Of a DNA stretch of 5,747 nucleotides, positions 2,994 to 5,747 are shown one piece after another. A program made the translations under genes and the position numbers. The notes beneath the pieces were generated by a model. That model was not told where the DNA came from. It was given only the letters and a program-made list of their open reading frames with translations, and ran no database searches. The DNA comes from an uncultured Prevotellaceae bacterium. Lineage in GTDB: Bacteria; Bacteroidota; Bacteroidia; Bacteroidales; Bacteroidaceae. The stretch spans positions 1 to 5,747 of the forward strand of contig CAMZHP010000229.1 in assembly GCA_947306845.1 (NCBI GenBank). Reading direction: 5' to 3'. Within the stretch, counting starts at the first letter, position 1; the number at the start of each line of letters is the position of its first letter.

Positions 2994-3071
2994 ACACTGC
3001 AAAAACGTGATGCAATCCTATCATTTCATCATGAATGTCATCAGCACCCAACCTCTTTCACTGCCTTCAAT

Positions 3072-3102
3072 TTGCAAGAGTTGCATGAATTGTATATCTT
3101 TG
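3072..3102 (+). promoter_or_regulatory. Bacteroidetes-type promoter for the Nudix gene
   Basis: TTG (3072-3074), a 20-base spacer, then TATCTTTG (3095-3102) form a full match to the -33/-7 consensus of the Bacteroidetes primary sigma factor. Transcription would start near 3108, giving a leader of about 35 bases. That leader holds A-rich sequence with a weak AAGGAAAAG (3119-3127) before the ATG at 3143. Confidence 0.8.
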
Positions 3103-3142: not shown

Positions 3143-3535
3143 ATGAAGCGAATAGAAGTTGTAGCCGCCATTATCCGTAAAAAGAGTGAAGTCTTCGCCA
3201 CCCAAAGGGGATATGGCGATTGGAAAGACTGGTGGGAGTTTCCCGGCGGCAAGATGGAACCAGGGGAGACACCGGAGGAGGCTCTGACGCGGGAGATACG
3301 AGAGGAACTGTCGGCGGATATCAACGTGGATGAGTTCCTGTGTACAGTGGAGTATGACTACCCGAAGTTTCACCTGACCATGCATTGCTTCCTCTGCTCA
3401 TTGCTGACGGAGGCGATGCACCTGAATGAACATGAGGCGGCACGATGGCTCAGGAAAGATGAATTGGAGAGCGTAGGCTGGTTGCCAGCCGACAGAGTGG
3501 TGATTGAGAAATTGAAAGTGAAGAGTGAAGAGTGA
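3143..3535 (+). CDS. MutT-like Nudix hydrolase ((deoxy)nucleoside triphosphate pyrophosphohydrolase)
   Basis: A 130-residue cytosolic Nudix protein, about the length of E. coli MutT (129). The Nudix box runs from G36 to A58: G-x5-E42-x7-R50-E51-I-x-E54-E55, which supplies the Mg-binding glutamates. The usual Gly near its end is Ser57. WWEFPGGK (30-37) before the box and an EHEAARWL segment with a following GWLPAD near the C-terminus are typical of the MutT/8-oxo-dGTP diphosphatase branch, which cleans oxidised nucleotides from the pool. The exact substrate cannot be read from sequence, since close relatives act on other nucleotides. It has its own promoter at 3072-3102 and appears to be a single-gene transcript, convergent with the radical SAM gene. 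The last residues (KVKSEE) and the stop codon are encoded by a GTGAAGA heptamer array, so the C-terminal tail is partly repeat-derived and probably not important for activity. Confidence 0.88.
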   Translation: MKRIEVVAAIIRKKSEVFATQRGYGDWKDWWEFPGGKMEPGETPEEALTREIREELSADINVDEFLCTVEYDYPKFHLTMHCFLCSLLTEAMHLNEHEAARWLRKDELESVGWLPADRVVIEKLKVKSEE

Positions 3536-3588: not shown

Positions 3589-4524
3589 CTATTGTTGGGT
3601 GGCGAAAATGCCTTGGTGCCATCCTTTTTCGCGCATCAGTTCGGTCAGTTTATTGTTGAGTATGGATGGGCGGATGCCCCATTGTGGTGCTATTACCATT
3701 GAGATGGGGGAGGAGGAGAAAAAGCGCTCCAGTACGAGGTCGTTCCGTAGCCTACAGATGTATTGTGCCAGCAGCGACAGATATTCGTTTGGGGTTGAAA
3801 CACGGATATCCCCTTGCTCCCAGCATCTGGCGAGGGCAGTTCCCCGCAGCACTTGGAGCTGATGGATTTTGAGTATCTGAATGGGAAGTTGTGATATTTG
3901 CTGAGCCTGCCGGAGCATTTCCTCCTCGCTCTCTTGGGGCAGTCCGAGAATCACATGGCCACAAGTGATGATGCTACGACTGGCCAAGGCTTCTGTGGCC
4001 TGGAGCACACACCATGTGTCGTGTTGGCGGTTGAGGTTCATCAATGTGCTGTCGTTCATCGACTCGATGCCTATCTCAACCGTGAGGAAGGTACGGCGGC
4101 TTAGTTCTTCCAAATAGTCAAGACAACTGGTGGAGAGGCAGTCGGGCCGTGTGCTGACGACAAGTCCGCGGATGCCTTCCACCGCGAGCGCTTCCTCATA
4201 GCGTTCGCGCAGGATGTCGGTGTCTGCATAGGTGTTGGAGAACGACTGGAAATAGGCCAAATAACCTGTGTTGGGATATTTTCGGGAAAAGAAGCGCTTG
4301 CCCGCCTCCAGTTGCTGGGTGATGGAGGCATTGGGCTGGCAGTATGGCGGAGTGAAACTGCTGTTGTCACAGAATGAGCAACCTTGAGTGGACAGCCGTC
4401 CGTCTCTGTTGGGACAGCTGAAACCAGCGTTGACAGGAAGTTTTTGCATCCGCATGCCCATCCGTTGCCTGATCCATCGCCCGTAATCGTTGTAGGGCAA
4501 TGACCCATCGACAGGTTGCTTCAT
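3589..4524 (-). CDS. Radical SAM protein, YhcC/YtqA family (TIGR01212-like)
   Basis: A 311-residue protein close in length to E. coli YhcC (about 309). Cys37, Cys49 and Cys52 (C-x11-C-x2-C, in SCPNRDGRLSTQGCSFC) are the ligands of the [4Fe-4S] cluster that cleaves S-adenosylmethionine; the long first spacing is characteristic of this family. Other family marks in order are YFQSFSNTYAD (91-101), VVSTRPDCL (122-130), TVEIGIES (148-155), GHVILGLPQE (189-198) and the KIHQLQVLRGT stretch near 216-226. The family is related to the Elp3 radical SAM fold. In Bacillus and Streptococcus, YtqA-subgroup members (MnmL) take part in making mnm5s2U at the tRNA wobble position together with the methylase MnmM. 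No methylase gene is beside this one, and I cannot assign it to that subgroup rather than to the uncharacterised YhcC subgroup. It is transcribed alone from a promoter near 4593. Confidence 0.9.
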   Translation of the reverse strand: MKQPVDGSLPYNDYGRWIRQRMGMRMQKLPVNAGFSCPNRDGRLSTQGCSFCDNSSFTPPYCQPNASITQQLEAGKRFFSRKYPNTGYLAYFQSFSNTYADTDILRERYEEALAVEGIRGLVVSTRPDCLSTSCLDYLEELSRRTFLTVEIGIESMNDSTLMNLNRQHDTWCVLQATEALASRSIITCGHVILGLPQESEEEMLRQAQQISQLPIQILKIHQLQVLRGTALARCWEQGDIRVSTPNEYLSLLAQYICRLRNDLVLERFFSSSPISMVIAPQWGIRPSILNNKLTELMREKGWHQGIFATQQ

Positions 4525-4773: not shown

Positions 4774-4790
4774 GGTTTATTTTGTAAACC
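4774..4790. promoter_or_regulatory. Operator-like palindrome 1 (GGTTTA-N5-TAAACC)
   Basis: GGTTTA, five bases (TTTTG), TAAACC: a perfect 6-bp inverted repeat, extending to 8 bp per arm (TTGGTTTA/TAAACCAA, 4772-4792). It is the first of three copies upstream of the membrane-protein/regulator pair and lies 53 bp (about five helical turns) centre to centre from the second. No promoter of its own is evident. Confidence 0.75.
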
Positions 4791-4824
4791 AATGTTAAAA
4801 AACAGCATTTTCTTCTCCAAAAAT

Positions 4825-4855
4825 TTGGTTTATAAAATAAACCGTACTAATTTTG
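4825..4855 (+). promoter_or_regulatory. Bacteroidetes-type promoter of the membrane-protein/regulator operon
   Basis: TTG (4825-4827), a 20-base spacer, then TAATTTTG (4848-4855) match the consensus in full. Transcription would start near 4862, leaving an unusually long leader of about 150 bases before the ATG at 5012. The spacer is almost filled by palindrome 2 (4827-4843), so regulator binding there would compete directly with RNA polymerase. Confidence 0.82.
4827..4843. promoter_or_regulatory. Operator-like palindrome 2, inside the promoter
   Basis: GGTTTA, TAAAA, TAAACC: same arms and same 5-base spacing as the other two copies. It begins on the last base of the -33 element and ends four bases before the -7 element, the classic position of a repressor site. 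Confidence 0.82.
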
Positions 4856-4896
4856 CCTTTGAAATCATTGGTGTGAGAAGAGAATGATGCTAGCTT

Positions 4897-4932
4897 AAGC
4901 AAGTGAGAGTCGACCTCCTTGCTTCTCTTTTT
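4897..4932 (+). terminator. Possible leader attenuator (hairpin plus U-run)
   Basis: AAGCAAG (4897-4903) pairs perfectly with CTTGCTT (4918-4924). A short inner stem GAG/CTC (4907-4909/4915-4917) is possible, and TCTCTTTTT (4924-4932) follows. This looks like an intrinsic terminator placed inside the leader, between palindromes 2 and 3. An upstream segment AAGAGAA (4878-4884) can pair with TTCTCTT (4923-4929), which would disturb the base of the hairpin, so alternative folds exist. The stem is short, so read-through is expected. Confidence 0.45.
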
Positions 4933-4940
4933 ACCGAGAT

Positions 4941-4957
4941 GGTTTAAAAAATAAACC
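4941..4957. promoter_or_regulatory. Operator-like palindrome 3, in the leader
   Basis: GGTTTA, AAAAA, TAAACC: third copy with identical arms, 114 bp centre to centre from copy 2 (close to eleven helical turns) and 54 bases before the membrane-protein start. Lying downstream of the promoter, it could support repression by looping or by blocking elongation. Confidence 0.75.
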
Positions 4958-5011
4958 GAATGTAAAACCACCTCCTGTTATCATTTGATAGGAGAAAAAT
5001 GAGAAAGAAAA

Positions 5012-5659
5012 ATGGAAGATAAGAAGATTTCTGAGAAAGAGAGTCTGGAGATTATCACCCAGATGATACAAAAGACGAGGCGCAATGTGGTTGATGGGAA
5101 CAATTTCATTTATTTGGGTCTGTTGCTGATGGTCTTGACGTTGTTGACAGGGGTATTTACCATGCTCACAGAAAATCATTGGTTCGCCGTTGTCAACATG
5201 TCCCTTTTGGTGGTATGGAATATCTGTGCATGGTATGTCGTACGCAAGGCCATTAAAAGAAACGGTGCTTCGCTGAGTTATACAGACAATATGCTGAAGA
5301 TCACATGGGACACTGTTTGCGGTATAGGCTTTGCCATTCCTCTGATGATTATGGTTGGGCTCCTTTTTTCTCTGGGCTCATATTTGAATCTGTTGGCACA
5401 TTATTGGGCTGTTCCGTTGATTCAATGCCTTCTGCTCATTATTGGGTGTCTGATAAGCAGTCAGTTGCTTGGAATGAAACTTGCACCGATGTCCGGATTG
5501 CCGGGAGCCTCCATACCTTTGGTGGCGTTTATGGTCAACTTTGAAGTATCACCCATATTCGAATTTGGTTGTGCCATGGTAGTTCTGACAATCGTTGCCG
5601 CCGTGACGATCACCGCCTTTGGCTTTTTTCTTAAAAGGAAGAATTTGGAAACAGCATGA
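5012..5659 (+). CDS. Polytopic inner-membrane protein paired with a winged-helix regulator
   Basis: A 215-residue integral membrane protein of unknown function. A charged cytoplasmic N-terminus (1-30) contains SEKESLEIITQMIQKTR, a start I associate with uncharacterised Bacteroidetes membrane proteins encoded next to small winged-helix regulators. Hydrophobic segments are at about 32-53, 58-77, 103-125, 131-152, 164-176 (short) and 183-206, suggesting five or six transmembrane helices. The protein ends in a basic tail (LKRKN). No catalytic or transport motif is visible. The start is fixed by an in-frame TGA at 5000-5002, and upstream there is only A-rich sequence with GGAG at 4991-4994, 17 bases away. 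The stop overlaps the next gene's start by ATGA, so the pair is probably translated together. It might be a sensor or partner for the regulator, or simply its regulated target; neither can be shown here. Confidence 0.8.
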   Translation: MEDKKISEKESLEIITQMIQKTRRNVVDGNNFIYLGLLLMVLTLLTGVFTMLTENHWFAVVNMSLLVVWNICAWYVVRKAIKRNGASLSYTDNMLKITWDTVCGIGFAIPLMIMVGLLFSLGSYLNLLAHYWAVPLIQCLLLIIGCLISSQLLGMKLAPMSGLPGASIPLVAFMVNFEVSPIFEFGCAMVVLTIVAAVTITAFGFFLKRKNLETA

Positions 5660-5747
5660 AAGAACTTGACCCTTTGCTGCATAGCCAGTTGAGGTTGGCT
5701 GTCATGTCCATCCTGCTGAGCCTTGAGGAAGCCGACTTTGTCTATCT
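5656..5747 (+). CDS. Winged-helix transcriptional regulator, N-terminus only (cut by window end)
   Basis: Only the first 30 codons and two bases of the next are present. They begin MKELDPLLHSQLRLAVMSIL and continue LSLEEADFVYL. This matches the N-terminal helix pair of small (about 100-residue) winged-helix regulators of the HTH_34 type, MarR/ArsR-like, common in Bacteroidetes. In such proteins, D-P-(L/V)-(I/L)-H-x-x-x-R-L-x-(I/V)-(M/L) precedes the helix that packs under the recognition helix. The recognition helix and wing are beyond the window. The start overlaps the membrane-protein stop (ATGA, 5656-5659). Autogenous control through the three GGTTTA-N5-TAAACC sites upstream is a natural inference, as such regulators bind palindromes as dimers. 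Confidence 0.75.
   Translation, partial: MKELDPLLHSQLRLAVMSILLSLEEADFVY

Follow-up and report, generated by a model that had tools for sequence, protein, structure and literature searches.

Three palindromes with identical arms precede a small operon for a membrane protein and a winged-helix regulator, raising the question of which protein acts on them and to what effect. We examined them in the window, the whole 5,747-nucleotide stretch of uncultured Prevotellaceae DNA analysed here, and in relatives across the genus, the order and beyond.

A palindrome inside a predicted promoter

The window holds three exact copies of GGTTTA-N5-TAAACC, as the initial annotation had read them. These candidate operators, which carry no strand assignment, lie at 4774-4790 (copy 1, spacer TTTTG), 4827-4843 (copy 2, TAAAA) and 4941-4957 (copy 3, AAAAA), with start-to-start spacings of 53 and 114; 200 dinucleotide-shuffled versions of the window contained none. 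As had been proposed, copy 2 occupies the spacer of a predicted promoter, between a -33 element TTTG (4824-4827, + strand) and a -7 element TAATTTTG (4848-4855, + strand), and its outer G doubles as the G of that TTTG. From sequence, this promoter agrees with the sigma-ABfr consensus of Bacteroides (TTTG near -33, TAnnTTTG at -7), the -33/-7 form of which is quoted in PMC7366714. The window has two exact TTTG-N20-TAnnTTTG matches where 0.03 would be expected, one at copy 2 and the other at 3071-3102, before a NUDIX gene at 3143. Copy 1 lies upstream of the promoter and copy 3 downstream, in the leader. An operator-like site overlaps the predicted promoter of the regulator's own operon, as would be expected of an autorepressed operon.

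The first gene of this operon (5012-5659, + strand) encodes a 215-residue membrane protein with a conserved N-terminal segment, SLEIITQMI. Its stop codon is overlapped by the ATG of the regulator gene (5656-5747, + strand), of which the window includes 92 bases before it ends. These encode the first 30 residues, identical to those of the close relative L001, and the family was assigned on the full-length L001 copy: HTH_34 (PF13601) at 91.2 bits against a cut-off of 27, with PadR (PF03551) at 22.8 bits, below its cut-off of 27. The expectation that the operon ends with a winged-helix regulator was thus borne out. The regulator's structural model is modest (pLDDT 63) and none of its Foldseek matches reached E 0.001, so the fold matches merely fit a winged helix. 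The membrane protein matched no Pfam family, and its AF2 model, of low confidence and made of helices only, was too poor for a structure search. A stand-alone regulator beside a conserved hydrophobic protein, whose number of transmembrane helices comes from that low-confidence model, is found in the window and in relatives L001-L005 and L007. Upstream and divergent lies a gene for a radical SAM protein (3589-4524), and at 21-1989 there are two adjacent open reading frames, the second with a fimbrillin-like Mfa_like_1 match.

Scanning genomes with the membrane protein yielded seven loci (L001-L007), all from Prevotella or uncultured Prevotellaceae assemblies; those with RUG in their names we take to be rumen assemblies. 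Five of the seven retain the full set of copies, spaced by 53 and 114 bp, with all three exact only in L001 and L003, one imperfect in L002 and two imperfect in each of L004 and L007. L005 has copies 1 and 2 only; L006 has none, and its membrane gene is missing the 5' part. Copy 1, 53 bp from copy 2, is exact in L001-L005 and in the further locus L026, with one mismatch in L007 and L027, and copy 3 recurs 114-115 bp from copy 2 in L001-L004, L007, L022 and L023, in some with one outer-base mismatch. By eye, the sequence before copy 1 varies among several loci while copy 1 itself stays, which suggests that copy 1 probably belongs to the membrane-protein/regulator operon.

Conservation of the dyad upstream of HTH_34 regulators

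A search for the regulator in 200 genomes of the genus found 74 positive, with 85 matches that reduced to 84 loci (one match was in two pieces). Of these, 82 had at least 600 bases upstream, the other two having too little upstream DNA; upstream lengths differ between loci. GTTTA-N5-TAAAC is present exactly in 68 of the 82 and with at most one mismatch in 73, and within 1.5 kb it occurs in 64, against a mean of 0.14 and a maximum of 1 in 50 mononucleotide shuffles. The word had been listed beforehand in 14 of 20 regions of one genus set; the 82-locus count uses every regulator place and so is not selected by the word. Across the order, the regulator was matched in 125 of 295 genomes, and the set comprised 69 loci (68 long enough), being matches down to E 1.7e-22 minus G001 and one with an internal stop. 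Here the dyad was exact in 49 of 68 and within one mismatch in 57, and within 1.5 kb it was found in 47 of 68 versus 0.34 in mononucleotide shuffles. Longer upstream reads added L238, L239 and L240, bringing the exact total to 52, and left L241-L243 with no exact dyad. The site is present upstream of related operons across the order, the first check that had been proposed for it.

GTTTA-N5-TAAAC was the commonest 5-bp dyad in both sets. A second common dyad, ACTGC-N5-GCAGT (38 loci), was rejected, being coding sequence for MTAERSLEII. The common arm of the 140 sites read in relatives is only 5 bp long (GTTTA/TAAAC), so the 6-bp arm described at the outset stands for the window copies and not as a general rule. 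Nor are the spacers free, as had been supposed: at the same sites they are 92% A/T, mostly TAAAA, TATTA or TAATA.

Beyond these sets, 26 plasmid records had a regulator match and three of these were read. Parabacteroides distasonis (L275) has two copies, 80 bp apart, before the operon, and Phocaeicola massiliensis one. Two loci (L088 and L089), whose regulators are 74-77% identical to the regulator, lack the dyad, nor did we see a related membrane gene ahead of these regulators; the 39% identical regulator of Bacteroides finegoldii has no word within 4.5 kb, even at one mismatch. Downstream of the distant pair in that species (L277, 4380-6655) is creD, a gene with a cell envelope integrity annotation. 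The word is kept where other genes separate promoter and regulator, in L079-L082 and in P. distasonis. Two extra genes lie between the operator and the membrane-protein/regulator pair in L079-L082, L228 and L275; in P. distasonis they encode a DUF2141 protein and an outer-membrane beta-barrel, followed by a hypothetical protein and the regulator, and those of L079-L082 and L228 are similar by length and by eye.

Probable operator function and its alternatives

From comparative sequence evidence, we consider it very probable that the three palindromes are operators of the operon's own HTH_34 regulator and that the operon represses itself through the promoter-covering copy 2. A regulator dimer on copy 2, with GTTTA as the putative half-site and two half-sites five A/T-rich bases apart, would cover the -33/-7 spacer and exclude RNA polymerase, giving negative autoregulation. 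Copy 1 could add occupancy upstream, and copy 3 could act as a second block or a cooperative site in the leader.

Site architecture bears most directly on the direction of control. An exact dyad is present at 117 of the genus and order loci (L002-L007 lie outside this set): 95 have one copy, 21 have two and one has three. The gap between a dyad and TAnnTTTG is 5 nt in 95 of these loci and 2 nt in 11; three loci have 4 nt and one has 6 nt, and no dyad is so placed in 7. A perfect TTTG also precedes the promoter dyad in 69. With the gap at 5 nt in most loci and 2 nt in others, the site persists in more than one register relative to the promoter. The same regulator could instead use the word to activate, or to switch between activation and repression, and copy 1, upstream of the -33 element at a constant distance from copy 2, does occupy the usual place of an activator. 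We judge this improbable, given that the gap of 5 or 2 nt puts the dyad in a blocking position in 106 of the 117 loci and that the promoter copy is the sole exact copy in 88.

The initial annotation had also placed copy 1 about 5 helical turns upstream of copy 2 and copy 3 about 11 downstream, suiting cooperative binding or looping. Elsewhere, two-copy spacings are 28, 34, 53, 69-70, 78-82, 88, 114-115 and 155 bp. Being so varied, they obey no helical rule; we rejected phasing as a rule, and looping from the same helix face is not general.

Autorepression by the operon's own regulator also presupposes that this protein, and not another conserved Bacteroidales regulator, binds the word. The word is nearly exclusive to these operons. 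Among the seven close relatives, six genomes contain the exact word, at 12 places, 12 of 12 at this operon, whereas the backward control word occurs at one place, in G003. A strict form, GTTTATAWWATAAAC, occurs at 52 places in 46 of the 200 genus genomes, and at 45 of these places a correctly oriented HTH_34 regulator follows within 4.2 kb; a random genome-wide distribution, the outcome that would have spoken against an operator, is thus not what we see. Genomes with the strict word had a regulator match in 44 of 46 cases versus 30 of 154 without it (Fisher p 8e-22). Its backward control gave 17 forward matches in the 200 genomes, so some strict-word places are background. Six of the seven stray places were read, G147 holding the seventh: one (G185) has the complete promoter, at the edge of a contig, two (G166) stand before an operon that the contig truncates, and three (L215, L218 and L230) look like chance. 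A looser word, GGTTTANNNNNTAAACY, was found in 105 of 200 genomes, at many places away from regulators, and its control word was also frequent. Many Prevotella genomes also carry GGTTTAGATACTAAACT at a distance from the regulator (for example L051, L066 and L067), where it is perhaps coding; backward controls for words of this type are also frequent in the genus.

We then sorted 217 loci by the recognition helix of their regulator: 154 of the GN-S-Q class, 49 of the DGN-S-H/S class and 14 others. The sort took in loci from the wider phylum (28, one duplicating L169, plus 40 from a longer list), and ten earlier reads were replaced by longer or duplicate ones. GTTTA-N5-TAAAC is present at 125 of 154 GN-S-Q loci, 0 of 49 DGN-S-H/S loci and 3 of 14 others, and within an equal 1.3 kb at 113 of 154 versus 0 of 49. 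Since the classes were drawn after a first look at the data and are also phylogenetically distinct, we read this as co-variation of word and helix and not as proof. A variant, CTTT[AG]-N5-[TC]AAAG, shows the opposite distribution (15 of 49 DGN-S-H/S, 2 of 154 GN-S-Q and 1 of 14 others, against 0.16 in shuffles of the 49), having been found at 9 of 15 discovery loci of the DGN-S-H/S class and then at only 6 of 34 fresh ones; 11 of those 34 lie in long frames of more than 200 residues. The top dyads of this class were AAAGT-ACTTT (20) and ACTTT-N7-AAAGT (16). Neither word was found at 34 of the 49 DGN-S-H/S regulators or, over the upstream DNA covered, at 29 of the 154 GN-S-Q regulators. The latter include five (L253-L257) for which the word was absent in 1.5 kb, and a de novo dyad search in these five and in the GNLSFQ and A[AS]GNIS[IL]Q groups (4 loci each) found none shared by more than two loci. 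Binding by some other regulator would accommodate the two of 46 strict-word genomes without a regulator match. One of those two is G166, with its words at the head of a truncated operon, and the presence of the word tracks both the HTH_34 regulator and its recognition helix; we rate this explanation somewhat lower still than activation.

A role mainly in RNA, in which the palindromes would form hairpins or belong to a leader attenuator instead of serving as DNA operators, is less probable again. Between copies 2 and 3 the leader contains a hairpin with a T-tract (4874-4935, + strand), possibly an attenuator, of which 4897-4931 varies at a single column across 6 sequences. The stretch 4858-5014 folds at z -4.83 and holds further hairpins besides this one; Rfam gave no match for the window. 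Copy 3 sits in the expected leader directly behind this nearly invariant hairpin, as an RNA role would have it. Copies 1 and 2 are upstream of the expected start, and at the 88 loci where the sole exact copy stands just before TAnnTTTG it is not transcribed from that promoter.

A different hairpin, absent from the window, marks other leaders. CTGCAG occurs in 33 of 64 leaders read (Prevotella, for example L034, L098 and L121), 32 times as TTCTGCAGG, in the loop of a conserved hairpin between the promoter and the membrane gene. In 29 aligned sequences (four of the 33 were set aside: a duplicate row and the poorer-fitting L044, L099 and L123), 9 of 13 pairs are changed on both sides and 89.7% of cells pair. 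The covariation score was 0.380; shuffles gave 0.181 and sliding gave no more than 0.134, a slid control that leans towards this structure, as the structure came from single folds of the same leaders. Rfam searches of 11 relatives' loci, seven with the CTGCAG leader, returned only a tRNA and no family at the leader.

Promoter conservation or AT-rich sequence alone is a negligible explanation: the word does overlap an AT-rich promoter and share an outer G with its TTTG, and backward control words occur in some genomes, but the shuffles reproduce almost none of the genus counts, second copies lie outside the promoter, the register of word and promoter differs between clades, and the DGN-S-H/S regulators lack the word altogether.

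By analogy, the membrane protein may sense an envelope or membrane signal and antagonize the regulator via its conserved N-terminal segment. A neighbouring open reading frame stands beside the regulator in 141 of 150 loci. Picked regardless of motif, these 141 proteins are most alike at the N-terminus (mean information 2.30 bits over the first 25 columns versus 1.59 over the rest), which would suit contact with the regulator, and 104 of them have an SLEII-like motif. A set of 103 picked by that motif, and biased accordingly, gave 2.45 versus 1.73 bits. That the N-terminal segment itself touches the regulator is our guess, modelled on the HAAS-PadR dyads (PMC11237479) and the autoregulated Listeria PadR operons (PMC6624303).

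A broader reading, which we put forward tentatively and at clearly less than even weight, is that the operator code can be read from the recognition helix, GN-S-Q specifying GTTTA-N5-TAAAC and part of the DGN-S-H/S class CTTT[AG]-N5-[TC]AAAG. HTH_34 regulator and membrane protein would then form a one-step module for envelope sensing, widespread in Bacteroidota, in which the membrane protein sequesters the regulator directly and which takes the place of a two-component system. The low recovery of the variant word among fresh loci lowers the odds of this reading.

A membrane-protein/regulator pair among known systems

HTH_34-type regulators are numerous: at least 7992 sequences pass E 1e-8 (7992 of 8000 candidates scored). 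In the literature searched, which excluded subscription papers and preprints, no paper contains the terms HTH_34 or PF13601 and we found no described operator for this regulator type, in agreement with the initial annotation. An operator predicted from sequence, and absent where the recognition helix differs, offers a concrete target in gut Bacteroidales. It also singles out a membrane-protein/regulator pair and opens the way to a search for its signal; together with its promoter, the word could supply a native promoter-operator for use in these commensals.

The nearest solved chain, by sequence (E 1.3e-06) and by fold, is PH1061 of Pyrococcus horikoshii (PDB 1ub9), an archaeal protein named a hypothetical protein or regulator homologue. 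LmrR of Lactococcus, described in PMC4534193 as a small winged-helix repressor that binds its own promoter, was among the Foldseek matches of the modest regulator model; unlike the window operon, LmrR controls a drug pump, according to the same text. Closer in organization are the Listeria PadR operons of LstR, LltR and LftR, repressors said in PMC6624303 to repress their own genes. Those operons encode transmembrane proteins, so that proposed autorepression and a transmembrane partner are common to both, whereas the window regulator belongs to another winged-helix family and another phylum.

The HAAS-PadR-like dyads, proposed in PMC11237479 as an alternative to two-component systems, differ in their regulator, the one here scoring as HTH_34 and as PadR only below cut-off. 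No HAAS domain (DUF1700, DUF1129 or DUF1048) was found at E up to 5 in the window protein, in P0044 or in a 110-residue Prevotella piece. As that source describes them, these dyads share with the operon studied here its basic layout, a small stand-alone winged-helix regulator adjoining a membrane protein.
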